Origin: a virus
Virus record (IMG/VR): IMGVR_UViG_3300031963_000042
Coordinates: 1 to 64,000 of that record
Length of the DNA: 64,000 nt
Direction: 5' to 3' (one strand)
The notes beneath the pieces were generated by a model. It was not told the origin of the DNA and did not search any database. It saw only the letters and a program-made list of their open reading frames with translations. Both the position numbers and the translations under genes were made by a program. Shown here piece by piece: positions 1 to 19,301 of the stretch; positions within the stretch are counted from its first letter, which is position 1, and each line of letters begins with the position of its first letter.

Positions 1-200
1 ATTAACTTACAAATTTTGTCTCTAAATTCATAGTTATAGTATACTTCACCTGATTTTTTCTTAATTAGGATTTCAGCATATCTATTATTTTTATAATGAA
101 GATATATGTCGTCTCCATCGTTACGTTCAACCACTTCCAGTTCGTCAAACTTTCGGTAAACAATTTTTTTTATTTTACTATAATATTCTTCTTTGCTCAT
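1..200 (-). CDS. Family A array protein, partial at window edge
   Basis: The first 66 codons of another array gene, read leftward from ATG at 200-198 and cut by the window edge. It begins MSKEEYYSKIKKIVYRKFDE like its neighbours. Bases 1-127 are identical to 343-469 in the next gene, so the two copies arose by a very recent tandem duplication or gene conversion. Function unknown. Confidence 0.8.
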   Translation of the reverse strand, partial: MSKEEYYSKIKKIVYRKFDELEVVERNDGDDIYLHYKNNRYAEILIKKKSGEVYYNYEFRDKICKL

Positions 201-299
201 GTTATTTGGATTTTATTTGGTTGGTATCTTCAACAGCTTTGAGGCGAAAGGATACTCGGAAGCGATGGTCTTAACCTTCATTTGAAAGGTATCTTCAAC
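201..299 (-). CRISPR. CRISPR-like mini-array A1 (one spacer)
   Basis: Read on the minus strand: full 36-nt repeat at 299-264, 29-nt spacer at 263-235, degenerate repeat at 234-201 ending at the ATG of the next gene. The repeat starts GTTGAAGATACC and contains the inverted repeat ACCTT...AAGGT. The spacer is about 52% GC by hand count. Confidence 0.5.
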
Positions 300-542
300 C
301 CATTTGCTCAGAAGTATTTCAAAATCAACCTTTTTTAAACGAATTAACTTACAAATTTTGTCTCTAAATTCATAGTTATAGTATACTTCACCTGATTTTT
401 TCTTAATTAGGATTTCAGCATATCTATTATTTTTATAATGAAGATATATGTCGTCTCCATCGTTACGTTTAGCCACTTTCAGTTCATTAAAATGTCTGTA
501 AATGAATACTTTTATTTTATTATAATACTGTTCTTTGCTCAT
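213..542 (-). CDS. Family A array protein (109 aa)
   Basis: Member of a tandem family that I do not recognise. Layout: an N-terminal helix-like segment with lysines and tyrosines (residues 1-20), an alternating strand-like part (25-55, core YLHYKNNRYAEILIKK), a hydrophobic helix around 60-80, and a conserved end WVEDTFQMKV at about 81-90. That end is encoded by the CRISPR-like repeat. The last 19 residues are encoded by the spacer and the next degenerate repeat, where the stop lies. No signal peptide or membrane segment. The gap to the next gene is only the repeat remnant. Possible roles (structural, RNA-binding, or a carrier for the repeats) cannot be told apart from sequence. Confidence 0.8.
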   Translation of the reverse strand: MSKEQYYNKIKVFIYRHFNELKVAKRNDGDDIYLHYKNNRYAEILIKKKSGEVYYNYEFRDKICKLIRLKKVDFEILLSKWVEDTFQMKVKTIASEYPFASKLLKIPTK

Positions 543-709
543 GTTATCTAAATTTTATTTGGTTTGTATCTTCAACCCATATCTTTCGATGCTCCGTTTT
601 CGGCAGGGTGTGATTCACCTTCATTTGAAAGGTATCTTCAACCGTTCCTTGCTGCACGATACCAGCAGCAGAAGGTGTGATTCACCTTCATTTGAAAGGT
701 ATCTTCAAC
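543..709 (-). CRISPR. CRISPR-like mini-array A2 (two spacers)
   Basis: Minus strand: full repeat 709-674, spacer 673-643 (31 nt), second full repeat 642-607 identical to the first, spacer 606-577 (30 nt), degenerate repeat 576-543. Two identical 36-mers separated by a unique segment, followed by a terminal repeat whose second half is degraded, is the classic form of a short CRISPR array. Both spacers are 50-53% GC. Confidence 0.6.
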
Positions 710-952
710 CCATCTGCCCAGAAGTATTTCAAAATCAACCTTTTCTAAATTAATTATCTTAAAAAATTTGTCTTTAAATTCATAATCATAGTATACTTCA
801 CCTGATATTTTCTTAATTAGGATTTCAGCATATCCTTTATTTTTATAACGAAGATACAAGTCATTTCGTTTATTACGTTCAACCACTTCCAGTTCGTCAA
901 ACTTTCGGTAAACAATTTTTTTTATTTTACTATAATATTCTTCTTTGCTCAT
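638..952 (-). CDS. Family A array protein (104 aa)
   Basis: Same fold-level pattern as the other array proteins. Here the frame runs through the first repeat and spacer and stops at the start of the second repeat, giving a tail FCCWYRAARNG encoded by the spacer. This shows that the C-terminal tail is set by whichever spacer is present and is not conserved. Confidence 0.75.
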   Translation of the reverse strand: MSKEEYYSKIKKIVYRKFDELEVVERNKRNDLYLRYKNKGYAEILIKKISGEVYYDYEFKDKFFKIINLEKVDFEILLGRWVEDTFQMKVNHTFCCWYRAARNG

Positions 953-1051
953 GTTATCTAAATTTTATTTTAAAGGTATCTTCAACCGAATATCAGCTAT
1001 ATATGGCAGACGTCCGGTGTGATTCACCTTCATTTGAAAGGTATCTTCAAC
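953..1051 (-). CRISPR. CRISPR-like mini-array A3 (one spacer)
   Basis: Minus strand: full repeat 1051-1016 (identical to those of A2), spacer 1015-987 (29 nt, about 45% GC), degenerate repeat 986-953. Confidence 0.5.
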
Positions 1052-1294
1052 CCATCTGCCCAGAAGTATTTCAAAATCAACCTTTTCTAAATTAATTATC
1101 TTAAAAAATTTGTCATTAAATTCATAATTATAGTATACTTCACCTGATATTTTCTTAATTAGGATTTCACCATATTGCTTATTTTTATAATGAAGGTACA
1201 AATCATTTCCATCATTACGTTCAGCCACTTCCAGGTCTTCAAACTTTCGGTAAACAAATCTTTTTATTTTATTATAATATTTTTCTTTGCTCAT
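965..1294 (-). CDS. Family A array protein (109 aa)
   Basis: Closely related to the 638-952 copy: its DFEILLGRWVEDTFQMKVNHT end is identical there. The 29-nt spacer plus one repeat base keeps the frame, so the protein ends LKIPLK inside the degenerate repeat. Function unknown. Confidence 0.78.
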   Translation of the reverse strand: MSKEKYYNKIKRFVYRKFEDLEVAERNDGNDLYLHYKNKQYGEILIKKISGEVYYNYEFNDKFFKIINLEKVDFEILLGRWVEDTFQMKVNHTGRLPYIADIRLKIPLK

Positions 1295-1396
1295 GTTATC
1301 TAAATTTTATTTTAAAGGTATCTTCAACGCAAAGAGAGCCCGCCATTCTGTCAATTCTGAGGTGTGATTCACCTTCATTTGAAAGGTATCTTCAAC
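1295..1396 (-). CRISPR. CRISPR-like mini-array A4 (one spacer)
   Basis: Minus strand: full repeat 1396-1361 (same 36-mer as A2 and A3), spacer 1360-1329 (32 nt, 50% GC), degenerate repeat 1328-1295. Confidence 0.5.
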
Positions 1397-1639
1397 CCAT
1401 CTGCTCAGGAGTATTTCAAAATCAATCTCTTCCAATGGAACTATCTTATTAATTTTATCTCTTAATCTTTTAGTATATAAAACCAGACCTGATATTTTCT
1501 TAATTAGGATTTCAGCATATCCTTTATTTTTATAACGAAGATATAAAAAATTTCCGTTATCACGTTCAACTACTTCCAGTTCATTAAACCTTTTATAAAC
1601 GAATCTTTTTATTTTACTATAATATTCTTCTTTGCTCAT
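1307..1639 (-). CDS. Family A array protein (110 aa)
   Basis: Array member with a diverged middle part (GLVLYTKRLRDKINKIVPLEE) but the standard start and repeat-encoded end. The 32-nt spacer is three bases longer than that of the previous unit, so the frame and the LKIPLK tail are kept. Confidence 0.78.
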   Translation of the reverse strand: MSKEEYYSKIKRFVYKRFNELEVVERDNGNFLYLRYKNKGYAEILIKKISGLVLYTKRLRDKINKIVPLEEIDFEILLSRWVEDTFQMKVNHTSELTEWRALFALKIPLK

Positions 1640-1738
1640 GTTATCTAAATTTTATTTGGTTGGTATCTTCAACCAGTCAATCAGGTAGCCTGCGATTACA
1701 GTGGGGCAACTCACCTCCATTTGAAAGGTATCTTCAAC
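1640..1738 (-). CRISPR. CRISPR-like mini-array A5 (one spacer)
   Basis: Minus strand: repeat 1738-1703, spacer 1702-1674 (29 nt, about 48% GC), degenerate repeat 1673-1640. The repeat differs from A2-A4 near its 3' end (AGGTGAGTTGCCCC), but the stem survives through G-U pairing. Confidence 0.48.
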
Positions 1739-1981
1739 CCATCTGCCCAGAAGTATTTCAAAATCAACCTTTTTTAAACGAATTAACTTACAAAATTTGT
1801 CTTTAAATTCATAATGGTAGTATACATTACCAAATTCTTTCTTAATTAGGATATTTGCATAATCATTATTTTTATAATGAAGAAGTATTTTCTTCCCATC
1901 AGTGCTTTCGAATACCTCTAATTCATTAAACCTTTTATAAACAAATCTTTTTATTTTATTATAATATTCTTCTTTGCTCAT
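1652..1981 (-). CDS. Family A array protein (109 aa)
   Basis: Array member with a divergent strand region (STDGKKILLHYKNNDYANIL) and the usual VDFEILLGRWVEDTFQMEV end. The tail SCPTVIAGYLIDWLKIPTK is encoded by the spacer and remnant repeat. Function unknown. Confidence 0.78.
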   Translation of the reverse strand: MSKEEYYNKIKRFVYKRFNELEVFESTDGKKILLHYKNNDYANILIKKEFGNVYYHYEFKDKFCKLIRLKKVDFEILLGRWVEDTFQMEVSCPTVIAGYLIDWLKIPTK

Positions 1982-2081
1982 GTTATCTAAATTTTATTTT
2001 AAAGGTTTCTTCAACAACTGGAATATCCATAATTTTTGTCAAGAGGGTGTTGATCACCTTTATTTTAAAGGTTTCTTCAAC
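1982..2081 (-). CRISPR. CRISPR-like mini-array A6 (one spacer)
   Basis: Minus strand: repeat 2081-2046 (GTTGAAGAAACC start, stem ACCTTT/AAAGGT), spacer 2045-2016 (30 nt, about 30% GC), degenerate repeat 2015-1982. First unit after the divergence point and the most diverged repeat of the left array. Confidence 0.48.
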
Positions 2082-2324
2082 CCAGCTCTTCAAAAGTATT
2101 TCAAAATCAATCTGTTCAAACCGAAATATCTTATTAATTTTGCCTCTGAATCTATTAGAATATAAAACCCAACCTAATTTTTTATTAATTCGAATCTGAG
2201 CGTATTCTTCATTATCATAACGAAAATATAAAATATCCCCATTATCACGTTCAACTACTTCCAGTTCATTAAACCTTTTATAAACGAATCTTTTTATTTT
2301 ACTATAATATTCTTCTTTGCTCAT
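1983..2324 (-). CDS. Family A array protein (113 aa), first of the left array
   Basis: First gene of the leftward array. The 30-nt spacer shifts the frame relative to 29- or 32-nt spacers, and the protein reads the degenerate repeat in the same frame as the full repeat, so VEETFKIK appears twice. This shows directly that the downstream element is a partial copy of the repeat. The start is preceded by an AT-rich stretch without a Shine-Dalgarno site. Confidence 0.8.
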   Translation of the reverse strand: MSKEEYYSKIKRFVYKRFNELEVVERDNGDILYFRYDNEEYAQIRINKKLGWVLYSNRFRGKINKIFRFEQIDFEILLKSWVEETFKIKVINTLLTKIMDIPVVEETFKIKFR

Positions 2325-2420
2325 TTTGTTATAATATTATAATAAATATTCGGTTAACCTTAATTCATGGGGGCTTCTGAGAACAAATAAAGGTTCAAAT
2401 AAAAAAAAAATAAAAAACGA

Positions 2421-2452
2421 TTTGCAAATACCAATTAAGACCGTTACCTTTG
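2421..2452 (+). promoter_or_regulatory. Bacteroidota-type promoter for 2478
   Basis: TTTG at 2421-2424, 20-nt gap, TACCTTTG at 2445-2452, then 25 nt to the ATG at 2478. This matches the -33/-7 consensus of the Bacteroidota housekeeping sigma factor. Confidence 0.8.
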
Positions 2453-2477
2453 TGGCTCAATTAAACTAAAAACTAAC

Positions 2478-3110
2478 ATGGAACATTTCATAGAGACAAT
2501 TCAAAAAGCGGTTAGGGAACATGGTGGTCAGATGACAATATTTGATCTATACCTGCGTGATTATCCGTATTTGTCATATAAAGACAAACAAACATCCATT
2601 AAAGTAAAGCTCTTTACTATGACGGGGATTGACGGAGAAATTGTCAACAGCAAGGGGGAAGTTCTTCAAAAGGTATCCGTGAATTATGAAGACATTAGTT
2701 CGATCAAGTTGCATTTTCTTTCCTGGCGAATTAGAGATCTTCATATGGTTAAAATTTATTATGAAGAGGAGCGTGAATCTTATATTAAGAAGATTGAATC
2801 ACATGGTGGTGGATGCCTTATCGAAAATAATTCCACAATGACATTGAATGATCTGTATGTGATTCTTTCGAACTTGGAAGAAGCCGCAGAAAGGGATCGA
2901 TTATTTAATGAGGACCATAGGCGAGCCTTAAAGAGAACCCACTATAATGATCTAAAAAACATTTTGGACACATTGGGTTTGGACTATATTGTTGTAACAC
3001 ATCTGGAGGAATATCTTCAGAATGAAACACCTGAGAATGCATCATTGTTTTCATTTGGCCAATATGAGTATTATTATGGAGACGGAATTTCGAAACGAAA
3101 AGTTAAATAA
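2478..3110 (+). CDS. Hypothetical protein between the two repeat/spacer arrays (210 aa)
   Basis: Unrecognised soluble protein, charged and largely helical by eye, no membrane segment. The segment at about 155-175 (DLKNILDTLGLDYIVVTHLEEYL) resembles residues 18-40 of the overlapping downstream protein (DLVRICEELDLRPTYITSLSEYL), so the two probably share a small domain. A clear host-type promoter precedes it. It sits between the divergent arrays, the place where a gene acting on the repeats would be expected, but nothing in it resembles a Cas protein that I know. Confidence 0.85.
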   Translation: MEHFIETIQKAVREHGGQMTIFDLYLRDYPYLSYKDKQTSIKVKLFTMTGIDGEIVNSKGEVLQKVSVNYEDISSIKLHFLSWRIRDLHMVKIYYEEERESYIKKIESHGGGCLIENNSTMTLNDLYVILSNLEEAAERDRLFNEDHRRALKRTHYNDLKNILDTLGLDYIVVTHLEEYLQNETPENASLFSFGQYEYYYGDGISKRKVK

Positions 3111-3435
3111 AGCGACCTTTCATGCTGATTTGGTTAGGATATGCGAAGAGTTGGATTTGCGACCGACCTATATAACTTCGCTATCGGAGTACTTGTATAT
3201 GTCTTTTGATATCTACATTGCTGGATTCCATGTAAAGGGCAAATCCTTTCTTCTGCAAGCACGTTTAATGGGGGATGAGGTATCATACCACATAATGATA
3301 ACTCGTGATTTTAAGAACAAGCATGGCGTTCGCAAGATAACATATCAAGACATTCTATCCAATACAAACTTGAAAGCTCTTCTATCCAGGTTTAAAAAAG
3401 AACATAACGTCTATTATAGATTGAAACAAAACTAA
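3076..3435 (+). CDS. Hypothetical protein, overlaps upstream gene (119 aa)
   Basis: Starts METEFRNEKLNKATFHADLV at ATG 3076, overlapping the previous gene by 35 nt; a longer in-frame start at 3022 is possible but would overlap by 89 nt. It carries the same short DL..I...L.L....T.L.EYL motif as the upstream protein, then a strand-rich part and a basic C terminus. Probably translationally coupled. Function unknown. Confidence 0.75.
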   Translation: METEFRNEKLNKATFHADLVRICEELDLRPTYITSLSEYLYMSFDIYIAGFHVKGKSFLLQARLMGDEVSYHIMITRDFKNKHGVRKITYQDILSNTNLKALLSRFKKEHNVYYRLKQN

Positions 3436-3507
3436 GGTTATTGCTTGGCTGATAAATATTGTGGTGTTCTCCGCGATCTATGTAATGTTCAAATATTGTT
3501 AAATGAC

Positions 3508-3840
3508 ATGAATAAAGAGAAGTTATATGGGGGGATAAAAAAAACCATGTATAGGAAGTTTAATAAACTGGAAATGGTTGAACGTAATGATGGCGATACT
3601 TTGTATCTTGGTTATAAAAATGATGAATATGCTGAAATCGTAATTGATAAAAAATCGGGCGAGGTATACTATCATTTTGAATATAAGAACAAAATTTGTA
3701 ACATGATTGGCGTTAATCAGGTTGATTTTGAAGTACTCTTGGGCCGATGGATTGAAGATACCTTTAAAATAAAGGTTGAACACATCGGGATAGACTACTA
3801 CCGCCGATCGTGCCCGGAGTTGAAGATTCGAATTAAATAA
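3508..3840 (+). CDS. Family A array protein, first of the right array (110 aa)
   Basis: Starts MNKEKLYGGIKKTMYRKFNK at ATG 3508, which aligns with all sister genes; an upstream TTG (3445) would add 21 unrelated residues. It has the repeat-encoded WIEDTFKIKVEH end and a spacer-encoded tail IGIDYYRRSCPELKIRIK. Nearly identical to the next gene through residue 90. Confidence 0.8.
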   Translation: MNKEKLYGGIKKTMYRKFNKLEMVERNDGDTLYLGYKNDEYAEIVIDKKSGEVYYHFEYKNKICNMIGVNQVDFEVLLGRWIEDTFKIKVEHIGIDYYRRSCPELKIRIK

Positions 3841-3850
3841 CTTATATGAT
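3751..3850 (+). CRISPR. CRISPR-like mini-array B1 (one spacer)
   Basis: Repeat 3751-3786 (ATTGAAGATACC start, stem ACCTTT/AAAGGT), spacer 3787-3818 (32 nt, about 62% GC), degenerate repeat 3819-3850. Confidence 0.5.
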
Positions 3851-4168
3851 ATGAATAAAGAAAAGTTTTATACTGGAATAAAAAACACCATGTATAGGAA
3901 GTTTAATAAACTGGAAATGGTTGAACGTAATGATGGCAATACTTTGTATCTTCGTTATAAAAATGATGAATATGCTGAAATCATAATTAATAAAAAATTT
4001 GGCGAAGTATACTATTATTCTGAATATAAGAAGAAAATTTGTTATATGATTGGCGTTAATCAGGTTGATTTTGAAGTACTCTTGGGCCGATGGATTGAAG
4101 ATACCTTTAAAATAAAGGTTGAACACATCGGCATAGAGATCGTGCCCGGAGTTGAAGATTCGAATTAA
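3851..4168 (+). CDS. Family A array protein (105 aa)
   Basis: Recent duplicate of the 3508 gene, with few substitutions before the repeat. Its spacer is an 11-nt-shorter version of the previous one, which changes the tail to IGIEIVPGVEDSN and moves the stop. Function unknown. Confidence 0.8.
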   Translation: MNKEKFYTGIKNTMYRKFNKLEMVERNDGNTLYLRYKNDEYAEIIINKKFGEVYYYSEYKKKICYMIGVNQVDFEVLLGRWIEDTFKIKVEHIGIEIVPGVEDSN

Positions 4169-4182
4169 ATAACTTATATGAT
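4094..4182 (+). CRISPR. CRISPR-like mini-array B2 (short spacer)
   Basis: Repeat 4094-4129 identical to B1; spacer 4130-4150 is only 21 nt and equals the B1 spacer with 11 internal bases missing and one substitution; degenerate repeat 4151-4182 matches that of B1. Confidence 0.45.
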
Positions 4183-4512
4183 ATGAATAAAGAAAAGTTT
4201 TATACTGGAATAAAAAACACCATGTATAGGAAGTTTAATGAATTGAATGTGGTTGTATCTAATGATGGTAATTACATTTATCTTAAATATAAAAATGATG
4301 CATATGCGCAGGTGGTAATTTACAAAGAATTGGGCCTTGTCAATTATTATTGTGGATTTATAGAAAAATTCTTTAAGCTATTTCCAATGACAAGACCTGA
4401 TTTTGAAGTACTTTTGAGTAGATGGGTTAAAGATACATTTAAAATTAAAATGAAGAATGCCAGCATAGCATGGCGTAAGTCCTCTCCCTTATTGAAAATA
4501 CCTCTAGAATAA
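4183..4512 (+). CDS. Family A array protein (109 aa)
   Basis: Shares the first 20 residues with the previous gene almost exactly, then diverges (ELNVVVSNDGNYIYLKYKND), suggesting recombination within the array. The repeat-encoded end is worn (WVKDTFKIKMKNAS). The tail ends LLKIPLE in the degenerate repeat. Confidence 0.78.
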   Translation: MNKEKFYTGIKNTMYRKFNELNVVVSNDGNYIYLKYKNDAYAQVVIYKELGLVNYYCGFIEKFFKLFPMTRPDFEVLLSRWVKDTFKIKMKNASIAWRKSSPLLKIPLE

Positions 4513-4524
4513 AAGTTAAACCAT
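4426..4524 (+). CRISPR. CRISPR-like mini-array B3 (one spacer)
   Basis: Degraded repeat 4426-4461 (GTTAAAGATACA start), spacer 4462-4491 (30 nt, 50% GC), degenerate repeat 4492-4524. Confidence 0.4.
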
Positions 4525-4857
4525 ATGTGTAAAGAGAAGTTATATGGGGGGATAAAAAACATTCTGTATAGAAGGTTTGAGAAACTGAAAGTGGTTGAAC
4601 GTGATAATGGAACTGTTTTATATCTTCGTTACAAGCATGATAAACATGCCGAGATTGTAATTAAAAAAAAATCATGTAATGTTTACTATTATTATGGGTT
4701 TAAGTCCAAACTTAATAAGCTTCTTCCAATTGAAGATAGTGACTTTGAAATACTTTTGATTAGGTGGATTGAAGAAAAATTTAAAATGAAGGTGCACGAC
4801 ACCATTCCACGTTTGCTTTCACATGAAGATCGTATATTAAAGATACCGATCAAATAA
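4525..4857 (+). CDS. Family A array protein (110 aa)
   Basis: Starts MCKEKLYGGIKNILYRRFEK. The end is WIEEKFKMKVHDT, a variant also seen at 5623. Tail IPRLLSHEDRILKIPIK is encoded by the spacer and remnant repeat. Function unknown. Confidence 0.78.
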   Translation: MCKEKLYGGIKNILYRRFEKLKVVERDNGTVLYLRYKHDKHAEIVIKKKSCNVYYYYGFKSKLNKLLPIEDSDFEILLIRWIEEKFKMKVHDTIPRLLSHEDRILKIPIK

Positions 4858-4869
4858 AACTTAACTAAC
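4768..4869 (+). CRISPR. CRISPR-like mini-array B4 (one spacer)
   Basis: Repeat variant 4768-4803 (ATTGAAGAAAAATTT start), spacer about 4804-4835 (32 nt, about 40% GC), degenerate repeat 4836-4869. The left boundary of the degenerate repeat is uncertain by a few bases. Confidence 0.38.
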
Positions 4870-5172
4870 ATGAATAAAGAAAAATTCTATACCGGAATAA
4901 AAAAAACCATGTATAGGAAGTTTAACGAACTGGATGTGGTTGAACGTAATGATGGAGATGATTTGTATCTTCATTATAAAGATGAAGAATACGCTCAGAT
5001 ATTAATTGAAAAAAAATCGGGTCATATTTATTATTTTTATGAGCTCAGTACCAAATTTTTTAAAATAATTCGCATAGGAATGACTGATTTTGAAGTACTT
5101 CTGAGCACCTGGGTTGAAGATACCTTTCAAACAAAGGTAAATCACATCACAGTGCAGAGTCCATTCACGTAA
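4870..5172 (+). CDS. Family A array protein (100 aa)
   Basis: Array member ending WVEDTFQTKVNHITVQSPFT; the stop TAA lies inside the spacer (5170-5172), so the rest of the spacer and the next repeat are untranslated. This argues that the spacer is not kept for its coding content. Confidence 0.78.
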   Translation: MNKEKFYTGIKKTMYRKFNELDVVERNDGDDLYLHYKDEEYAQILIEKKSGHIYYFYELSTKFFKIIRIGMTDFEVLLSTWVEDTFQTKVNHITVQSPFT

Positions 5173-5210
5173 TAGCTGGTTGAAGATACCTTTAAAATAA
5201 AATTTAAACC
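5113..5210 (+). CRISPR. CRISPR-like mini-array B5 (one spacer)
   Basis: Repeat 5113-5148, spacer 5149-5178 (30 nt, about 47% GC), degenerate repeat 5179-5210 with an intact first half (GTTGAAGATACCTTT) and an altered second half. Confidence 0.52.
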
Positions 5211-5212
5211 AT

Positions 5213-5527
5213 ATGGATAAACAAAAGTTCTATGCTGGAATAAAAAATATCATATATAGGAAGTTTAATGAACTGGAAGAGATTGAACGTGATAAAGGAA
5301 ATTATGTGTATCTTCGTTATAAAAATGAAGAGTTTACTCAGATCCTAATTGAAAAAAAATCAGGTAATGTTCACTATTCTTATAGAGTAGCAGACAAAAT
5401 TTACAAGATGATTCGGTTGGAACGGGCTGATTTTGAAGTACTTCTGAGCACCTGGGTTGAAGATACCTTCCAAATAAAGGTAAATCACATCGCTATGTCT
5501 GATTTGTTTGATTTTTTCAGGGGTTGA
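5213..5527 (+). CDS. Family A array protein (104 aa)
   Basis: Starts MDKQKFYAGIKNIIYRKFNE and ends VEDTFQIKVNHIAMSDLFDFFRG, the last part being spacer-encoded; the stop falls at the first bases of the second repeat, as in the 638-952 gene of the left array. Confidence 0.78.
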   Translation: MDKQKFYAGIKNIIYRKFNELEEIERDKGNYVYLRYKNEEFTQILIEKKSGNVHYSYRVADKIYKMIRLERADFEVLLSTWVEDTFQIKVNHIAMSDLFDFFRG

Positions 5528-5620
5528 AGATACCTTTCAAATAAAGGTAAATCACATCAGTATTAAAATCAATACCCGTCACTTTGGCGTTGAAGATACC
5601 TTTAAAATAAAATTTAAACC
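5456..5620 (+). CRISPR. CRISPR-like mini-array B6 (two spacers)
   Basis: Repeat 5456-5491, spacer 5492-5522 (31 nt), repeat 5523-5558, spacer 5559-5588 (30 nt), degenerate terminal repeat 5589-5620. The two full repeats differ at one base. The stem is perfect: ACCTTT, loop CAAAT, AAAGGT. Together with A2 this is the best CRISPR-like structure in the window. Confidence 0.6.
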
Positions 5621-5622
5621 AT

Positions 5623-5925
5623 ATGGATAAAAAAAAGTTCTATGCTGGAATAAAAAAAACCATGTATAGGAAGTTTAATAAATTGCAAGTGGTTGATCTG
5701 GGTAATGGAAACGACGTATATCTTCGGTATAAACATGATGATAATGTTCAGGTCCTAATTAAAAAAAAATATGGCGAAGTTTATTATTATTATGGGTTTA
5801 AAAACAAATTTCTTAAGCATATTCCAATGAATCAGCTTGATTTTGAAATACTCTTGAGTCAATGGATTGAAGAAAAATTTGAAATAAAGGTTAGCGACAT
5901 CTGGAAGCAATATCTATGTACATAA
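5623..5925 (+). CDS. Family A array protein (100 aa)
   Basis: Array member ending WIEEKFEIKVSDIWKQYLCT, with its stop inside the spacer. The upstream leader AAATTTAAACCATATGGATAA is shared with the 5213 gene. Function unknown. Confidence 0.78.
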   Translation: MDKKKFYAGIKKTMYRKFNKLQVVDLGNGNDVYLRYKHDDNVQVLIKKKYGEVYYYYGFKNKFLKHIPMNQLDFEILLSQWIEEKFEIKVSDIWKQYLCT

Positions 5926-5967
5926 TAATGTGTTGAAGAAAAACACCTGGCACCAATCAAATAACTT
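5866..5967 (+). CRISPR. CRISPR-like mini-array B7 (one spacer)
   Basis: Repeat variant 5866-5901, spacer 5902-5931 (30 nt, about 27% GC), degraded repeat from 5932 (GTTGAAGAAAAACACC) to about 5967. Confidence 0.4.
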
Positions 5968-5974
5968 AAATGAA

Positions 5975-6289
5975 ATGTGTAAATATAAGTTCTATAATGC
6001 GATAAAAAAAATCATACATAGGAAGTTTAACGAATTGGAAGTTGTTGGACGTAATAATGGGAATGATTTGCACCTTCATTATAAATATGATAATCATGCT
6101 AAGATCTTAATTAAGAAAAAATCGGGTAATGTTTATTACTACTATGGATTTAAAAGCAAAATTATCAATATGATTCCTATGGAGCAGCGTGATTTTGAAG
6201 TTCTTTTGAAGAGATGGGTTGAAGATTCTCATCAAATGAAGGTGAAGGCCGTCTATCAAGCACCTAAGAATTTCCCGTTTGCCCGTTAA
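5975..6289 (+). CDS. Family A array protein, last of the right array (104 aa)
   Basis: Starts MCKYKFYNAIKKIIHRKFNE at ATG 5975, in register with its sisters; the upstream in-frame start at 5930 would translate the degenerate repeat. The tail VYQAPKNFPFAR is spacer-encoded and the stop lies where the terminal repeat begins. Confidence 0.75.
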   Translation: MCKYKFYNAIKKIIHRKFNELEVVGRNNGNDLHLHYKYDNHAKILIKKKSGNVYYYYGFKSKIINMIPMEQRDFEVLLKRWVEDSHQMKVKAVYQAPKNFPFAR

Positions 6290-6313
6290 ATACGCCTTTA
6301 AAATTTAAACATC
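6218..6313 (+). CRISPR. CRISPR-like mini-array B8, distal end of right array
   Basis: Repeat 6218-6253 (worn stem), spacer 6254-6284 (31 nt, about 45% GC), remnant repeat 6285-6313 (GTTAAATACGCCTTT). No family A gene follows, so this is the end of the array. Confidence 0.42.
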
Positions 6314-6359: not shown

Positions 6360-6749
6360 ATGAAAGGCATTATTGATTTGCAAGATGGATTGACCTATAA
6401 TGACCTTAAGGTTAAGTATTCATGGGTATTGGAAGCTAACATTGAAGAGGCTGTCATTGGGGAACGCAATAATTCATTGATGTGGCATGGTGGAAAATGG
6501 AATTGGGGTGTATGGAGAAGCGGCATATGGAAGCACGGCATATGGGAGAATGGCATCTGGGATGGGGGTTTTTGGATGTTTGGTGTATGGAAGCACGGCA
6601 TATGGAATGATGGGTTTTGGGATAATGGTTATTGGCGGGATGGCACATGGCACAATGGCTATTGGAATGGTGGAAGTTGGGGGAAAGGCACCTGGAATGG
6701 GGGGAAAGTACATAATGGCGAGTATTTTGAGCATATAAGCGAAAGATAG
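6360..6749 (+). CDS. Trp/Gly pentapeptide-like repeat protein (129 aa)
   Basis: A normal-looking N terminus (about 40 residues) is followed by some 16 tandem copies of a five-residue unit of the form x-G-x-W-x (for example KHGIW, ENGIW, DGGFW). Regular five-residue spacing of aromatic and glycine residues suggests a compact beta-helix or solenoid, as in other short-period repeat proteins. No signal peptide. Possible roles are structural protein, ligand mimic or surface decoration; none can be chosen. The matching open frames on the other strand are shadows of the repetitive codons. Confidence 0.85.
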   Translation: MKGIIDLQDGLTYNDLKVKYSWVLEANIEEAVIGERNNSLMWHGGKWNWGVWRSGIWKHGIWENGIWDGGFWMFGVWKHGIWNDGFWDNGYWRDGTWHNGYWNGGSWGKGTWNGGKVHNGEYFEHISER

Positions 6750-8005: not shown

Positions 8006-8248
8006 ATGAAAAAATTAATTGGCATAGGTGGTGAGGAGGTTAGGGTTGACTGTTATGGTCCTAACATAAGTGTTAGGTATGGGGACAGGATAGTATTCCG
8101 GTATGGTGTAACTAATACATTAATAGGCGAGGGTTATGTATTATTAAACTATGTTGTTAATGGTGAGTTAGGTGGCAGGAGTGTAATGGAATATCGGGAG
8201 GACAGCATAAAAAAGATAAAAGAAACTTGCGGGAGTGGGGGAAAGTGA
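8006..8248 (+). CDS. Hypothetical protein (80 aa)
   Basis: Small strand-rich protein starting MKKLIGIGGEEVRVDCYGPN, with glycine-rich turns and an acidic/basic C-terminal helix (EDSIKKIKETCG). GC and G-run content are higher than in the surrounding genome. Its 3' end overlaps the promoter of the next gene (8227-8257). Not recognised. Confidence 0.65.
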   Translation: MKKLIGIGGEEVRVDCYGPNISVRYGDRIVFRYGVTNTLIGEGYVLLNYVVNGELGGRSVMEYREDSIKKIKETCGSGGK

Positions 8249-8257
8249 TTACCTTTG
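8227..8257 (+). promoter_or_regulatory. Promoter with its -7 box 4 nt before an ATG
   Basis: TTG 8227-8229, 20-nt gap, TACCTTTG 8250-8257; ATG at 8262. With the usual start a few bases past the -7 box, the mRNA would be leaderless or nearly so. Confidence 0.6.
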
Positions 8258-8261
8258 TGGT

Positions 8262-8714
8262 ATGATAACGGTAAGCATAGATGACTTTCGTATAAAGCAT
8301 GAGATATGGGGTGAGTCACCATATGAGGAGTATGGTGGTATATATAACAGGCTATGTGATTTCTGCAACAATGTGGATGAGCCGGTGCGTTTAAGGGGGG
8401 AGCTTAACATTGTTCAGGTTTATGGTCCCCCCATTAATAATTTGGTTTATGTGGAGAAGTTTTGGTTTACGAGTGATTATGATAGTCGGTTTAACGTGGG
8501 GGAGTTTCTCCCCCACTTAAGGGTGGTGGATACGTTGTCGGTGTTATTTCCTCCGATTAACCTGGGGAATATAGAATATGTGGGCATCTATACTGGGATT
8601 CGTTTACAAGAGAAAATGTGCAACATGACAATAGATCATATTAAAGATGACATATATAAGCTTAGCAATTGTTTTTTTTGTGATAAAATAATTAGGATAT
8701 CTAACTTAGAATGA
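8262..8714 (+). CDS. Family B LRR-like protein (150 aa)
   Basis: Start at ATG 8262 (MITVSIDDFRIKHEIW) aligns with the two following paralogues; the frame is open from 8235 but that start precedes the promoter. Family B layout: short N-terminal strand ending in D-F, helix with a conserved C (LCDFCNN), then three turns of the type xP-x-h-x-x-h-x-x-L (INNLVYVEKF, LPHLRVVDTL, LGNIEYVGIY), then a C-terminal strand. This looks like a very short leucine-rich-repeat solenoid. A perfect DNA hairpin (8496-8516) lies inside the coding region. Confidence 0.8.
   Translation: MITVSIDDFRIKHEIWGESPYEEYGGIYNRLCDFCNNVDEPVRLRGELNIVQVYGPPINNLVYVEKFWFTSDYDSRFNVGEFLPHLRVVDTLSVLFPPINLGNIEYVGIYTGIRLQEKMCNMTIDHIKDDIYKLSNCFFCDKIIRISNLE
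8496..8516 (+). repeat. Perfect 9-bp inverted repeat inside CDS
   Basis: GTGGGGGAG, loop TTT, CTCCCCCAC. The homologous place in the next paralogue (8950-8970) has a different but again perfect stem. Confidence 0.85.
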
Positions 8715-8715
8715 T

Positions 8716-8723
8716 TACCTTTG
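8716..8723 (+). promoter_or_regulatory. Promoter -7 box 4 nt before an ATG
   Basis: TACCTTTG, with ATG at 8728. The block TTACCTTTGTGGTATGATAA is the same as before 8262 and 9182. The -33 position holds TTAG, a weaker match. Confidence 0.5.
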
Positions 8724-8727
8724 TGGT

Positions 8728-9168
8728 ATGATAACGATAAACACAAAAGATCTGGTCACTGAAGAAGATTTGGCTTATAAAGATGCACATGACTTCTTTT
8801 GTTCGATATATAAGAGGTTAAGTTTTTTCTGTGACAATGTGGATGATCAGGTATATCTTACAGGCACGTTAAACATACACGATATTTATGGGGACCCCAT
8901 TAAGAATTTAGTACATATAGATAGGTTAGGGTTCGTTAGTTGGCTTGACCTGGGGGAATATTTCCCCCAGTTAAAGACGGTGAATACATTCTCGGTGTTG
9001 TTCCCCCCGATTAACCTGGGGAATATAGAATACATAGAGACATACAAAGGGATTCTAATCCAGCAAGAAACGGGGGGCGTGAAAGTAGAACACATACAAG
9101 ATGATATGTATAAACTAAGTAATAAACATTTTTCTGATAGAATAATTAGAATATCTAACTTAGAATGA
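8728..9168 (+). CDS. Family B LRR-like protein (146 aa)
   Basis: Tandem paralogue of the 8262 gene; the stretch from SVLFPPINLGNIEYI onward is nearly the same in both, down to runs of identical bases. N-terminal half diverged. It contains the hairpin 8950-8970. Spacing to the previous gene is 13 nt, just enough for the -7 box. Confidence 0.8.
   Translation: MITINTKDLVTEEDLAYKDAHDFFCSIYKRLSFFCDNVDDQVYLTGTLNIHDIYGDPIKNLVHIDRLGFVSWLDLGEYFPQLKTVNTFSVLFPPINLGNIEYIETYKGILIQQETGGVKVEHIQDDMYKLSNKHFSDRIIRISNLE
8950..8970 (+). repeat. Perfect 9-bp inverted repeat inside CDS
   Basis: CTGGGGGAA, loop TAT, TTCCCCCAG. Compared with 8496-8516, two base pairs have changed on both sides while pairing is kept. 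Confidence 0.85.
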
Positions 9169-9169
9169 T

Positions 9170-9177
9170 TACCTTTG
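9170..9177 (+). promoter_or_regulatory. Promoter -7 box 4 nt before an ATG
   Basis: Third copy of TACCTTTG followed by TGGT and ATG (9182). TTAG occupies the -33 position as at 8693. Confidence 0.5.
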
Positions 9178-9181
9178 TGGT

Positions 9182-9640
9182 ATGATAACGATTAGAATAG
9201 AAGACTTTATTACCGATCAAGACATTACACCTATGGATGATCTCCCGGTAATAACTAACTATGAGGCAATATATGATCGTATAGCAAATTTCTGCAATAA
9301 CGTGAATGATGAAGTACACCTTAACGGATGGATCGATGGAGAACATATTAATGGCACAATTAATAACCTAGTATATATCTCATCACTTAATTTTAATTTT
9401 ACTAAAAATGGTAAATCAGATATAGCTAAAAAATTCCCCCACCTTAAAGAGGTAGACCGATTCACTCACTACGGTCTACCAGCTAACCTGGGGAATATAC
9501 AACGTATAGGAAAATACATCGGTATCAAACTATATATCGAACTAAATGCTATAACTCTTAAACATATCTATGGTGATCTATATAATATATCATGCTCTAA
9601 CTTCTCTAAAGATATAATACTAGCTGACAGGGGGGGCTAA
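9182..9640 (+). CDS. Family B LRR-like protein (152 aa)
   Basis: Third tandem paralogue (MITIRIEDFITDQDITPMDD). It keeps the three LRR-like turns (INNLVYISSL, FPHLKEVDRF, LGNIQRIGKY) but has lost the internal hairpin: only the CCCCC side remains. Base use is more AT-rich than in the two genes before it. The stop lies in a G run. Confidence 0.8.
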   Translation: MITIRIEDFITDQDITPMDDLPVITNYEAIYDRIANFCNNVNDEVHLNGWIDGEHINGTINNLVYISSLNFNFTKNGKSDIAKKFPHLKEVDRFTHYGLPANLGNIQRIGKYIGIKLYIELNAITLKHIYGDLYNISCSNFSKDIILADRGG

Positions 9641-9745
9641 CCCCCCCTCCCCACCACCATACCACCCATATAGGGGGGGGCCCCCCGTATCCCCCCTCCC
9701 CCTAAATGGGGGATAAGACCCAAAAGGGGGGTATAATCCCCCAAA
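9628..9745. repeat. G-run / C-run island
   Basis: About 118 bp with several runs of 5-9 G or C, including nested inverted repeats (GGGGGGG near 9630 with CCCCCCC near 9642; GGGGGGG and CCCCCC around 9674-9687). It may terminate transcription of the 9182 gene or fold as hairpins or quadruplexes. Confidence 0.7.
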
Positions 9746-9746
9746 A

Positions 9747-9774
9747 AAAGTCTGGGCAATTTTTTCCGGATTTG
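9747..9774 (+). repeat. 28-bp direct repeat, left copy
   Basis: Begins AAAGTCTGGGCAATTTTTTC; identical to 10132-10159. Both copies follow a C run and lead into a pyrimidine-rich stretch, and together they bracket the 9873 gene. Confidence 0.9.
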
Positions 9775-9872
9775 GCCTTTCCTTCTGGGTGGGGTTACAC
9801 TTATTATTCAAGTGGCTTTAGATATGGATTAATTCCCTCATAAAATTTTTTTAAAATTAAAAACAACAGAAA

Positions 9873-10133
9873 ATGGATACTAAAAAACTTATGGAAATGT
9901 CATCGTTTTGGCATAACAAAACGGATGAAGAATGTATTCAAATGGCATCCACTGAATATGGGGTTGATGCTGCGGAAGCTCTCTCAAATATGTTTGAAAG
10001 AGATTTTTGGATTCAAACAAACAATAATATTATAAATGAATTAACCAAACAGGTTTTGGATGAAAAATCTGTTAGTGAGGGAGTAAATGACGACAATATA
10101 AACATAACAAACGAACCAGACACCCCCCAATAA
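9873..10133 (+). CDS. Hypothetical protein in a direct-repeat cassette (86 aa)
   Basis: Small acidic helical protein (MDTKKLMEMSSFWHNKTDEE), with a low-complexity C terminus rich in N, D and E. Its stop codon is one base from the right copy of the 28-bp repeat, so gene and repeats may have moved or duplicated as a unit. It interrupts the family B series. No domain recognised. Confidence 0.75.
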   Translation: MDTKKLMEMSSFWHNKTDEECIQMASTEYGVDAAEALSNMFERDFWIQTNNNIINELTKQVLDEKSVSEGVNDDNINITNEPDTPQ

Positions 10134-10159
10134 AGTCTGGGCAATTTTTTCCGGATTTG
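10132..10159 (+). repeat. 28-bp direct repeat, right copy
   Basis: Second copy of the element at 9747-9774, overlapping the stop codon region of the 9873 gene. Confidence 0.9.
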
Positions 10160-10163
10160 CCCC

Positions 10164-10207
10164 CCCTTCAAGTAAGTAATTTATTCTCCCTTCAAGTAAG
10201 TAATTTA
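10164..10207 (+). repeat. Two tandem 20-bp repeats
   Basis: CCCTTCAAGTAAGTAATTTA at 10164-10183 and again at 10188-10207 (24-bp period). The rest of 10208-10426 is noncoding, with G runs and two ATGGTCCAT words. Confidence 0.85.
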
Positions 10208-10426
10208 ACGTCCCCCTTTTTTTGTGGGTTTATTATTCCCTCCATTCGATGGCACATATATGGTCCATTTTGAGTGGGGGTTTTTTTACGTCTTCAACTA
10301 TGGGGTTATAATAATGGTCCATATAATGGTTTATATTTTTGGGCATAAGGGTATATTTATATTTGGGGGGGGGGTGGTTTCCAAAAAAAAATTTTTGGAA
10401 AATTTTTGAAAAAATTAGGTTTTTAT

Positions 10427-10882
10427 ATGTTGACATTATATATTGATGATTTTGATTGTGAGGGCTGCACCAGTGCAGATATTTTTACTAACTTGAGTTA
10501 TTATTGTAATAATATAAGGCATAGAATTTTTTTAACCTATAGAGATAAAAAGTATCGTCATATTATATTCTATGATAATGGATTAATATACCCCAACGTT
10601 ATTTATATTTACGAGTTAAATATGTATAGCCGTATTGATTTCTCGAAGACATTTCCTGATTTAAAAACCATAGGTAGATTTAATTTTGATGGCAATTATC
10701 ATATAGATAGTTTTGGGGGGGTTGAAAGTATAACTTGGTTTAACCATATGACTGACATGCTTTCTCCGGAGAAAAGAGAAAAGCTTGGAATAAACATTAT
10801 ATGTGAGATGATTGGTGTTAGAATGTATCGGTTTACGACACCTAAAGGATCTTGGGATATTAGTGTTATGGTATTTAATTAG
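10427..10882 (+). CDS. Family B LRR-like protein, CxxC type (151 aa)
   Basis: First gene of the long tandem series. Start at ATG 10427 (MLTLYIDDFDCEGCTSADIF) to match the sister genes; an upstream in-frame ATG (10406) adds seven unrelated residues. Features of this subgroup: N-terminal D-F-x-C-x-G-C, a conserved cysteine after a helix, three LRR-like turns (YPNVIYIYEL, FPDLKTIGRF, FGGVESITWF), and a C-terminal strand pair with GVRMYRFTTPKGSWDI. A CxxC and separate Cys could bind metal, but several sisters lack the CxxC. Confidence 0.85.
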   Translation: MLTLYIDDFDCEGCTSADIFTNLSYYCNNIRHRIFLTYRDKKYRHIIFYDNGLIYPNVIYIYELNMYSRIDFSKTFPDLKTIGRFNFDGNYHIDSFGGVESITWFNHMTDMLSPEKREKLGINIICEMIGVRMYRFTTPKGSWDISVMVFN

Positions 10883-10894
10883 AATTTATAGAGT

Positions 10895-11353
10895 ATGAAA
10901 GTAAGAATAAATATTGATGATTTTGATTGTGAGGGTTGTGCTATCAGAGATGTTATGCGCAACATAAGTTTTCATTGTGAAAATAGTACTGGTGATAAAA
11001 TTTCTATATATTCTGGGCATAAGCTTCAAACATTGAATTGTTATGATTACGCATTAAGATATCCTAATGTTGTTTACGTTGAGAATTTGAGGTTGGTATA
11101 TAATGTGGAGGACCTAAAAAGCGTTTTTCCTGATCTTAAGAAGATCGGTTCATTTGTATCAAATTACAATAAAATACAAGATTTTGGCAAAATAGAGGAG
11201 ATTGATTATTTTTATAGGATGTCTTTTTATTCTGTTTCAGATGATAGGCCAAAATATAATCAAATCACGGTATGTGAGCCTCTTGGTGACAAGATGTATC
11301 GGTTTAAAACTAAAAAAGGTAGCTGGGATATAAAGGTTAATAAATATTGTTAG
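10895..11353 (+). CDS. Family B LRR-like protein, CxxC type (152 aa)
   Basis: CxxC present (DFDCEGC). Turns YPNVVYVENL, FPDLKKIGSF, FGKIEEIDYF. C terminus KKGSWDIKVNKYC. 12-nt gap to the gene before, holding the leader AATTTATAGAGTATG that recurs through the series in place of a Shine-Dalgarno site. Confidence 0.85.
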   Translation: MKVRINIDDFDCEGCAIRDVMRNISFHCENSTGDKISIYSGHKLQTLNCYDYALRYPNVVYVENLRLVYNVEDLKSVFPDLKKIGSFVSNYNKIQDFGKIEEIDYFYRMSFYSVSDDRPKYNQITVCEPLGDKMYRFKTKKGSWDIKVNKYC

Positions 11354-11365
11354 AATTTATAGAGT

Positions 11366-11824
11366 ATGAGAGAGATAATATATACTAATGATTTTTTTTG
11401 TGACGGTTGTCAATACCCTGATGTTATGGAGAATATCAGTCTGCATTGTCATTTTACACCTAGTGATGAAATTTGGATTTATGAACGTAGTGGCAATAAT
11501 TTATTTTTGGCTTGCTATAGTGAGGATATCACATACCCAAAAGTTACTTATGCTGAATCGGTAAAATTAGCTAAGGATGTTAGTTTAATTAAAATTTTGC
11601 CCGATATTAAGAAGATGGGGGAACTTACGACTAGTTACAGTGATATAGATGATTTTGGGAATATACAGGAAATAGGGTATTTTAACGGTCTGTCTGAATT
11701 TACTAACTCACGAAAAAGAAAACTATATAACATAAAAACAAAATGTGTACCTCTTGGTGACAATATGTATAGGTTCACAACACCTAAAGGAATCTGGGAT
11801 ATTAGGGTTAATAGTTATGATTAA
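11366..11824 (+). CDS. Family B LRR-like protein, CxxC type (152 aa)
   Basis: CxxC present (DFFCDGC) and the segment TPSDEIWIY. A 44-bp block (11520-11563) is identical to 12000-12043 in the next gene, although flanks differ, which points to gene conversion. Confidence 0.85.
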   Translation: MREIIYTNDFFCDGCQYPDVMENISLHCHFTPSDEIWIYERSGNNLFLACYSEDITYPKVTYAESVKLAKDVSLIKILPDIKKMGELTTSYSDIDDFGNIQEIGYFNGLSEFTNSRKRKLYNIKTKCVPLGDNMYRFTTPKGIWDIRVNSYD

Positions 11825-11848
11825 GCCCCCATTTTAAGTTTATAGAGT

Positions 11849-12304
11849 ATGAAAGAGATAATATTTATTACAGATTTTTTTTGTGATGATTGTACCAACA
11901 AAGATGTTATGGCTAATATCAGTAGGCATTGTAATCTTACACCTAGCGATGAGATTTGGGTTTATGATGGTGTTCCTAATTTTTATTTGATTTGCTTTAG
12001 TGAGGATATCACATACCCAAAAGTTACTTATGCTGAATCGGTATCCTTAAGTACGCAAGTTAGTTTAATTAAAATTTTGCCTGATATTAAGAAGATTGAT
12101 TATTTTTGGGCCAATTATCTTGGCATGGATGATTTTGGTACAATACAGGAAATAGGGCATTTTTCCAATATGTCTATCTTTACTAACTCACGATACAGAA
12201 AAGAAAATAACATAAAAACAAAATGTGAACGTATTGGTAAAAAAATGTATCGGTTTACGTCAGATAAAGGTACCTGGGATATTAAGGTTAATAAATATGA
12301 TTAA
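11849..12304 (+). CDS. Family B LRR-like protein, CxxC variant (151 aa)
   Basis: CxxC kept but the glycine is replaced (DFFCDDC). Closest to the preceding gene. Turns YPKVTYAESV, LPDIKKIDYF, FGTIQEIGHF. The 24-nt leader before it (with GCCCCCATTTTAAG) is shared with the next gap. Confidence 0.85.
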   Translation: MKEIIFITDFFCDDCTNKDVMANISRHCNLTPSDEIWVYDGVPNFYLICFSEDITYPKVTYAESVSLSTQVSLIKILPDIKKIDYFWANYLGMDDFGTIQEIGHFSNMSIFTNSRYRKENNIKTKCERIGKKMYRFTSDKGTWDIKVNKYD

Positions 12305-12328
12305 GCCCCAATTTTAAGTTTATAGAAT

Positions 12329-12787: not shown

Positions 12788-12798
12788 ATTTATAGAAT

Positions 12799-13257: not shown

Positions 13258-13268
13258 ATTTATAGAAT

Positions 13269-13721: not shown

Positions 13722-13732
13722 ATTTATAGAAT

Positions 13733-14188: not shown

Positions 14189-14199
14189 ATTATAAAAAT

Positions 14200-14649: not shown

Positions 14650-14660
14650 ATTTATAGAAT

Positions 14661-15104: not shown

Positions 15105-15115
15105 ATTATAAAAAT

Positions 15116-15577: not shown

Positions 15578-15588
15578 ATTTAGAGAAT

Positions 15589-16038: not shown

Positions 16039-16049
16039 ATTTAGAGAAT

Positions 16050-16478: not shown

Positions 16479-16489
16479 GTTTAGAGAGT

Positions 16490-16945: not shown

Positions 16946-16950
16946 ATAAT

Positions 16951-17403: not shown

Positions 17404-17408
17404 ATAAT

Positions 17409-17867: not shown

Positions 17868-17890
17868 AACCCCGTTTAAATTAAATAAGT

Positions 17891-18346: not shown

Positions 18347-18357
18347 AATTATTGATT

Positions 18358-18786: not shown

Positions 18787-18798
18787 AATATATTTATT

Positions 18799-19251: not shown

Positions 19252-19301
19252 AACTCCCATTCTCCCAATATAACTTAGGTTATTTTCAAAAAACTCGCGA
19301 C

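Follow-up and report, generated by a model that had tools for sequence, protein, structure and literature searches.

Examination of the window, by which we mean the whole 64,000-nt stretch of viral DNA that was analysed, revealed a family of phage genes with 3' ends that are probably CRISPR-like cassettes used at the protein level. The window holds 14 units with 16 spacers, spread over both of its divergent arrays, and this recount agrees with the numbers given in a first-pass annotation of the sequence, which had also placed the 36-nt repeats, the unique segments of 29-32 nt and the degenerate repeats at the correct positions in both arrays. The spacers measure 21 nt (one), 29 nt (four), 30 nt (five), 31 nt (three) and 32 nt (three), the sole 21-nt spacer being a deletion derivative of its neighbour. 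Two units carry two spacers (952..638, minus strand, and 5213..5527, plus strand), and the two outermost units of the plus-strand array (from 5623 and from 5975) have strongly degraded second repeats. Another record of the same phage, G002 (148,754 bp, of which 60,721 bp are identical to the window), has 43 such spacers. A control pattern gave 0 matches versus 17 in the record, and a chance origin is thereby ruled out. The features of the window are as follows, the coordinates after each unit name being those of its family A gene.

P01 (113 aa), 1983..2324, minus strand: repeat 2081-2046, spacer 2045-2016 (30 nt), degenerate repeat 2015-1980; tail through the spacer, VINTLLTKIMDIPVVEETFKIKFR
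P02, 1652..1981, minus strand: repeat 1738-1703, spacer 1702-1674 (29 nt, homologous to that of P08), degenerate repeat 1673-1638
P03, 1307..1639, minus strand: repeat 1396-1361, spacer 1360-1329 (32 nt), degenerate repeat 1328-1293
P04, 965..1294, minus strand: repeat 1051-1016, spacer 1015-987 (29 nt), degenerate repeat 986-951
P05, first part, 638..952, minus strand: repeat 709-674, spacer 673-643 (31 nt, translated)
P05, second part, minus strand: identical repeat 642-607, spacer 606-577 (30 nt, past the stop), degenerate repeat 576-541
P06, 213..542, minus strand: repeat 299-264, spacer 263-235 (29 nt), degenerate repeat 234-199
P07, 1..200, minus strand: truncated by the window edge; about 27 further units of this array are present in G002
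M01, 3508..3840, plus strand: repeat 3751-3786, spacer 3787-3818 (32 nt), degenerate repeat 3819-3854
M02, 3851..4168, plus strand: repeat 4094-4129, spacer 4130-4150 (21 nt, the M01 spacer minus a deletion), degenerate repeat from 4151
M03, 4183..4512, plus strand: repeat 4426-4461, spacer 4462-4490 (29 nt), degenerate repeat 4491-4526
M04, 4525..4857, plus strand: repeat 4768-4803, spacer 4804-4835 (32 nt), degenerate repeat 4836-4871
M05, 4870..5172, plus strand: repeat 5113-5148, spacer 5149-5178 (30 nt, in-frame stop past 8 codons), degenerate repeat 5179-5214
M06, first part, 5213..5527, plus strand: repeat 5456-5491, spacer 5492-5522 (31 nt)
M06, second part, plus strand: repeat 5523-5558, spacer 5559-5588 (30 nt), degenerate repeat 5589-5624
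M07, 5623..5925, plus strand: repeat 5866-5901, spacer 5902-5931 (30 nt, in-frame stop), degraded second repeat from 5932
M08, 5975..6289, plus strand: repeat 6218-6253, spacer 6254-6284 (31 nt), degraded second repeat from 6285
ORF pair, 2478..3435, plus strand: overlapping frames of 210 and 137 aa, located between the divergent arrays and matching no known family

The first repeat of a unit encodes the conserved C-terminus of the protein, W-VEDTFQMKVNHT, and the C-terminal motif derived from the 36-nt repeat reads W-V-E-x-x-(F/L)-x-x-K-V-x-x-T. The spacer prolongs the reading frame past this repeat into a hypervariable tail of about ten residues, while the degenerate second repeat presents stops in all three frames and is followed by the next ATG. 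The units had been described as filling the gaps between genes; the order of their elements was correctly given, but they are not gap DNA, since the first repeat forms the 3' end of the gene, in frame with it, and the ORF takes in the spacer as well. It is also because of this frame that a non-coding phage CRISPR array was set aside as the primary reading. Changes in the repeat fall mostly at third codon positions (89/61/176 by codon position), and its drift across subfamilies resembles that of protein-coding sequence.

The spacers appear to be translated and to be selected to stay open. An in-frame stop occurs in 3 of 40 gene-adjacent spacers, while the other two frames are interrupted in 18/40 and 17/40, and a count as low as 3/40 was reached in 0 of 20,000 shuffles. 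In the in-frame arrays of related phages, none of the 55 spacers has an in-frame stop (16 and 30 in the other frames); in their single-tail units the figure is 5 of 30 (15 and 12 in the other frames), and only two of these five have the stop within the first 8 codons. In multi-spacer A-type arrays, the ORF ends in the repeat that follows the first spacer, yet this spacer, of 29 or 31 nt, is open in 9/9 cases; translational coupling to the downstream gene was therefore rejected as the cause of the open frame. Capture of foreign genes in frame was likewise rejected, as the frame of the spacers lacks codon-like composition. Codon changes between orthologous spacers, 25 in total, comprise 13 synonymous and 12 non-synonymous ones against a neutral expectation of 28% synonymous (p=0.009), which suggests purifying selection; in the P02/P08 paralogous pair of the phage analysed here, the spacer changes are all non-synonymous. 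Coding-like evolution of these segments in related phages had been named in advance as an argument against a CRISPR-like nature, and older spacers do behave in this way in part.

Spacer lengths fall mostly at 29-32 nt and are not tied to codon phase, which implies that the length ruler works at the DNA level; in one-frame arrays the spacers measure 30 nt almost without exception. Their GC content is 45% versus 27% in the genes, and 42-45% versus about 30% in the phages, and their dinucleotide biases are those of natural DNA (TA 0.72, z -5.8, outside the stop-sensitive position). Neither random synthesis nor phage DNA, therefore, accounts for them. Furthermore, the spacers turn over on constant repeats: P06 and P07 are 96% identical at the gene 3' end and 100% identical in the repeat, with unrelated spacers, and P04 and P05 likewise have unrelated spacers behind a gene that is 93% identical over 200 nt and a repeat that is 100% identical. 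Across 703 pairs, the mean spacer identity is the same as for shuffled sequence. Double-spacer units have their own repeat variant duplicated, with two different spacers.

Homologues are present in more than 25 other large-phage contigs, with the anatomy conserved and the repeat sequence diverged, and in one subfamily up to nine repeats with 30-nt spacers form an array that is a single open frame. CRISPR-like growth of the arrays is well supported by the comparison of orthologous multi-spacer arrays in sister phages, in which 118 shared unit pairs stand in the same order, with 0 conflicts, and entire 66-nt units with unrelated spacers are gained or lost. Private units are enriched gene-proximally (7/18 versus 10/80, p=0.014); as they are also found inside arrays, the polarity is not strict. 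Significance is overstated wherever the counts run over related sequences. Between sister strains of this phage (L011 versus L012) a unit deletion is the only difference, and no acquisition event was caught. The CRISPR-like hallmarks recognized by the first-pass annotation are upheld in these respects: the spacers are unique and of fixed length, they are replaced on constant repeats and genes, and unit order is kept in sister phages.

These data bear on whether the family is an ordinary hypervariable tandem repeat protein with a linker that diverges fast under positive selection, its CRISPR look being coincidental, a reading that we consider improbable. The repeat is indeed coding, ancestral family members without spacers also have a variable tail, and genes of this type, with a repeat-spacer look inside a protein-coding gene, are known to yield false CRISPR calls (PMC5294841). 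However, such false CRISPRs are without diverse spacers (PMC5294841) and would have their units copied together with the spacers, whereas here the spacers of near-identical units show chance similarity and are not diverged copies. Nor would a repeat protein account for A-unit spacer lengths out of codon phase, for a natural, foreign composition unlike that of the surrounding gene and phage, or for the gain and loss of whole units.

The source of the spacers was sought widely. There was no significant protospacer match in 50,697 phage records, none in 1.84 Mb of this and related phages, several phages' own records included, none in plasmids for the 8 spacers searched, and none in IMG/VR outside this phage for two 22-nt spacer cores; an N-joined query was sensitive enough for one 20-nt match to be reported. 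An origin in the phage's own genome or in related jumbo phages was thus rejected, with nothing beyond 15-19-nt chance matches, as was one in known phages or plasmids. The spacer search that had been suggested at the outset, an empty result of which was to count against a CRISPR-like origin, accordingly yielded no match in phage records or related phages. Rfam gave no relevant match. The gene cas1 and its product are absent from 20 phage records, in keeping with the earlier remark that no cas gene was in view.

Could short cassettes be copied from a donor store between repeat arms, as in lamprey VLR or pilin cassette switching? The repeats flanking each variable piece would permit gene conversion, and the L011/L012 comparison documents unit deletion by recombination; yet no donor copy of any spacer is present in G000, G002 or the 1.84 Mb of related phages, different array loci have no spacer clusters in common, and a retro-copy route finds no reverse transcriptase (searched in this phage only), all of which makes such copying very improbable. 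We give scarcely any credence to a decoy for host CRISPR adaptation, in which many repeat sites would make the host integrase waste prespacers. Each genome does offer numerous identical repeats, and spacer gain is insertion-like, but what a trap collects ought to be mostly phage DNA, and no spacer matches the phage, while the spacers have a higher GC content than the phages; moreover, stop avoidance shows that the content of the insert matters.

It appears unlikely, too, that the units are primarily phage-borne CRISPR mini-arrays whose crRNAs are cut for a host effector against rival phages or host genes, with translation secondary, for example as transcript protection. Their 36-nt repeats, 30-nt spacers, degenerate last repeat and array-like evolution all fit this reading. 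A type II-C or VI-B system of Bacteroidota could accommodate repeats of this size and 30-nt spacers; an identification of the repeat as a type VI-B (Cas13b) direct repeat was not confirmed, and the likeness extends to size only. Some repeats also outdo the majority of their synonymous variants in hairpin folding (P01 p<0.001, L130 p=0.005, M-type p=0.02; set means of z -3.5 to -4.4 against synonymous codons, over sets of related sequences), and these short hairpins leave room for an RNA role. However, the commonest A' repeat has a weak hairpin or none (p=0.34), several spacer-bearing units lack it, and it is weak in the repeat of the main relatives, contrary to the earlier description of a stem kept in most copies. 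In-frame stops are strongly avoided even where translation stops just past the first spacer, and the phage records and related phages searched contained no protospacer. The first-pass annotation had suggested an array serving host Cas proteins or mimicking host repeats; the former does not sit well with spacers that are translated and kept open on a repeat that varies like coding sequence, and the host-repeat search it called for gave the latter no support, as the core of the window's own repeat occurred in 0 of 84,980 species genomes in two exact-pattern scans.

Cas-less virus-borne mini-CRISPR arrays do exist, in the portogloboviruses of Sulfolobales (PMC6858448; reviewed in PMC11656645), and they resemble the present units in having one or a few spacers behind conserved leader-side sequence. 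Their repeats equal those of the host and most of their spacers match related viruses (PMC6858448, PMC11656645), whereas our searches gave neither host repeat nor protospacer; here, a protein gene has the repeat as its end, the spacers seem to be translated and selected to stay open, and there are dozens of paralogous units. RNA anti-CRISPRs (Racrs; PMC10651486) likewise involve CRISPR-like repeats in phages that lack cas genes, but these are small non-coding RNAs from solitary, spacer-less repeat units that match a host repeat (PMC10651486), while here unique spacers lie inside coding frames, a spacer and a second repeat occur in every unit, and no host repeat was found in the genomes scanned. 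Compared with CRISPR arrays in general, the loci have near-identical direct repeats in the 23-50 nt range and unique spacers of uniform length, which come and go in an ordered, leader-polarised way (if not strictly so), with duplication of the repeat; they depart from them in that the spacers are in frame and not non-coding (stops in 3/40 and 0/55) and gave no matches to mobile elements or viruses in our searches. Diversity-generating retroelements work by adenine-directed substitutions and have a reverse transcriptase and a template repeat. The family resembles them in that diversification is targeted to a phage protein's C-terminal end, but a whole piece of about 30 nt is replaced, there is no template repeat or spacer copy elsewhere, and reverse transcriptase (PF00078) is absent from five records of this phage.

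Pfam and PHROGs gave no convincing family for the A, A' or C proteins. The AlphaFold2 model of P04 has a pLDDT of 87.6, and a fold search with the single-tail form matched no solved structure, the only matches being uncharacterised proteins of an uncultured Caudovirales phage; the multi-repeat protein, modelled alone by AlphaFold, gave a pLDDT of 42, and this model is not trustworthy.

In the reading that we consider probable, a piece of about 30 nt of foreign natural DNA behind the repeat is read as the hypervariable tail of about ten residues, and the degenerate repeat after it ends all three frames. New pieces would enter beside the gene, bringing with them a copy of the unit's own repeat as in CRISPR adaptation, while older ones would be shifted downstream or lost through repeat-repeat recombination; in one subfamily the multi-spacer array remains one open frame throughout. 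The inserting enzyme is probably a Cas1-Cas2-type integrase from the host, because the phages are without cas1, and the tails most likely provide a changing peptide set that binds variable partners in hosts or rival phages. The searches yielded no partner protein for the tails, no integrase and no spacer source. More broadly, we tentatively propose, as possible but short of probable, that in large phages a CRISPR-type acquisition process has been turned into protein diversification, with translated arrays taking up foreign DNA, probably through host adaptation enzymes, as a heritable and growing set of tails or modules.

No description of translated repeat-spacer arrays was found in the literature searched. 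To our knowledge, CRISPR arrays, viral ones included, act via RNA, and selection on their spacers as protein is not known. CRISPR finders would call arrays such as these, which could mislead the matching of spacers to hosts. With members in more than 25 large-phage contigs, the family is widespread enough for study. If the proposal is true, these phages would have a new route to protein diversity, apart from retroelement hypermutation or cassette switching, and the question is raised whether Cas1-Cas2-type integration can serve roles beyond guide RNA memory.

In both divergent arrays of family A, the unit anatomy is constant: ~343 nt in the order gene, 36-nt repeat, 29-32-nt unique segment (the spacer), degenerate repeat and ATG. 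Our count of 16 spacers in 14 units within the window agrees with that of the first-pass annotation, and G002, a longer record of the same phage, contains 43 spacers. The annotation placed this whole series in the gaps between genes; the order holds, but the repeat and spacer lie inside the ORF. Translation of the family A repeat (GTT GAA GAT ACC TTT CAA ATG AAG GTG AAT CAC ACC) gives VEDTFQMKVNHT, with which the conserved part of the protein ends; the reading frame continues beyond it through the spacer, and the degenerate repeat terminates all frames.

Reading of the degenerate repeat according to spacer length
Spacer of 29 or 32 nt: L-K-I-P-L-K-stop
Spacer of 30 nt: V-E-D-T-F-K-I-K-F-R-stop
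Spacer of 31 nt: TGA at once

Since the W-(I/V)-E-x-K-F-x-I-K-V motif recurs in the distal members of the tandem family, which lack both a spacer and a second repeat, the sequences indicate that the repeat originated as coding sequence. Most differences between repeat variants fall on the third position of the codon (minor alleles 89/61/176). Compared with synonymous variants, sets of repeats fold somewhat better (z -3.5 to -4.4), with single repeats ranging from p<0.001 to p=0.57; the repeat may therefore also act as a hairpin in RNA or DNA.

The spacers avoid stops in the frame of the gene. An in-frame stop occurs in 3/40 gene-adjacent spacers, against 18/40 and 17/40 in the other two frames; shuffling gives on average 16.8 stop-bearing spacers of 40, and in 20,000 shuffles the number never fell to the observed 3. 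Coupling to the next gene might keep spacers open, but this is ruled out by the multi-spacer A-type units, because translation there already ends after the first spacer, which is open in 9/9 cases (29 or 31 nt). Spacer lengths are tightly clustered yet out of codon phase; it is thus the DNA that sets the length, and selection that subsequently imposes the coding property. Between phages, orthologous spacers show 13 synonymous and 12 non-synonymous codon changes (28% synonymous expected if unconstrained, p=0.009), which is only suggestive of protein-level constraint, as numbers are small and ancestry is shared. The spacer peptide TDAY(M/R)NID, possibly a conserved functional tail, is common to three phages (loci L139:3891, L155:3001 and L168:2646), with mostly synonymous codon differences.

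A single-tail protein, modelled with 60 homologues, gave a confident prediction (pLDDT 87.6, pTM 0.81) of a helix, four strands and two helices, in which the repeat codes for the terminal part of the last long helix together with the stretch after it; confidence drops in the variable tail. A fold search retrieved no similar solved structure, the sole matches being uncharacterised proteins from uncultured Caudovirales phage. In BFVD, at least 10 such proteins of 104-329 aa share the fold (including A0A6J5L9L5 and A0A6J5L5U3), and some of these lengths suggest multi-repeat arrays.

The spacers turn over: where unit pairs have gene ends 93-96% identical and the same repeats, spacer similarity is no higher than for shuffled sequence. 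Across all 703 pairs of units, mean spacer identity is 0.326, vs 0.325 for shuffles. Each of the three two-spacer units has its own repeat variant duplicated. Comparison of L011 with L012 shows one unit to be missing from a sister record, where a recombination deletion between neighbouring repeats has fused gene P06 to the P07 spacer. The composition of the spacers is foreign: those of this phage have 45% GC against 27% for genes and 31% for the phage, and the overall spacer value is 43% versus ~30% in six phage records. TA occurs at 0.72 times the expected frequency (z -5.8, with the stop-sensitive position left out), and CA and TG are high. This make-up speaks for natural DNA other than the phage's own.

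The earlier reading of a CRISPR-like phage array split by genes gained no spacer target or host repeat: 171 spacers found nothing beyond 15-19-nt chance matches in 1.84 Mb of sequence from this phage and its relatives, no significant match was returned from phage records or, for eight spacers, from plasmids, and the repeat core of this phage was absent from 84,980 species genomes in two scans for exact patterns only. Cas1 was not found in 20 records, nor reverse transcriptase in five.

The family is widespread: large-phage contigs, the longest of them 294 kb, contain 35 loci, and a profile search detected it in 29/34 records. Relatives were first reached via a head-protein search, through a phage whose homologues are distant (E 6e-13) and share the anatomy but have a different repeat, GTTGAAAATACCCTACAAATGAGGGTTAAAGACACC. 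In the related subfamily A', true multi-spacer arrays follow some genes. A third subfamily, C, has the repeat GTGGAAGAGGTCTTAAATCATAAGGTATCCACAACC (V-E-E-V-L-N-H-K-V-S-T-T) in up to nine copies, with 30-nt spacers holding the entire array in one frame; none of the 55 distinct C spacers contains an in-frame stop, compared with 16 and 30 for the two alternative frames. Nearly all end in G, so that the true C repeat probably starts one base earlier.

Multi-spacer arrays of subfamilies A' and C
L132, A'-type, from 3246: spacers of 31, 30, 30 and 30 nt; degenerate end
C unit order, example 1: QDSL-FIPL-CDVK-TILK-DSLD
C unit order, example 2: YRPI-VTGS-CDVK-TILK-DSLD
C unit order, example 3: FIPL-DDSR-VTGS-CDVK-NTHN-TILK

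Descent of the C arrays is array-like. Orthologous arrays of sister phages keep common units in a single order, with 0 conflicts among 118 shared pairs, and no spacers are common to different array loci. Units private to a single array are enriched gene-proximally (7/18 vs 10/80, Fisher p=0.014, hand count), although they also occur internally and the polarity is not strict; distal repeats are more degenerate. CRISPR arrays change in this same manner.

The window covers positions 1-64000 of an IMG/VR phage record of 103,208 bp, and over 60,721 bp it is identical to G002 (148,754 bp), where the array extends past the window edge. For both the portal and the major head protein of the phage, the matching PHROGs are of T4 type. 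The host may plausibly belong to the Bacteroidota, as Flavobacterium, Microcystis and Rhodothermus phages are among those with the closest named major head proteins (37-43% identity). Other features of this phage are as follows, the second tandem family being a contrast case to the repeat-spacer family.

6360-6749, + strand: small protein adjoining the + array, with tandem W-rich 5-residue-type repeats (GIWKHGIWENGIWDGG)
8235-24110, + strand: second tandem family, ~32 genes of 130-160 aa with LRR-like motifs (e.g. FPNVVYVDKL, LPDLKKVG); gaps mostly short (3-24 nt), without repeat-spacer structure
36601-40569, + strand: a pair of large proteins (621 and 651 aa) carrying C-terminal leucine-rich-repeat stretches (Pfam)
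G002:C1:95205-105460 (L021/L022), - strand: third tandem family, ~11 adjacent genes of 300-320 aa

A CRISPR array is non-coding and has spacers with matches; since the repeats and spacers here are translated and the spacer searches returned no significant match, we do not class the family as one. Its mode of change is nevertheless that of a CRISPR array, and the data best fit an array extended through CRISPR-type insertion, with the inserts used as peptide. The sequences show the anatomy, the frame, the avoidance of stops, the turnover of units, the array-like descent and the foreign composition of the spacers. By inference from these, a host Cas1-Cas2-type integrase would perform the insertion, and the tails may provide the phage with a shifting repertoire of binding peptides.
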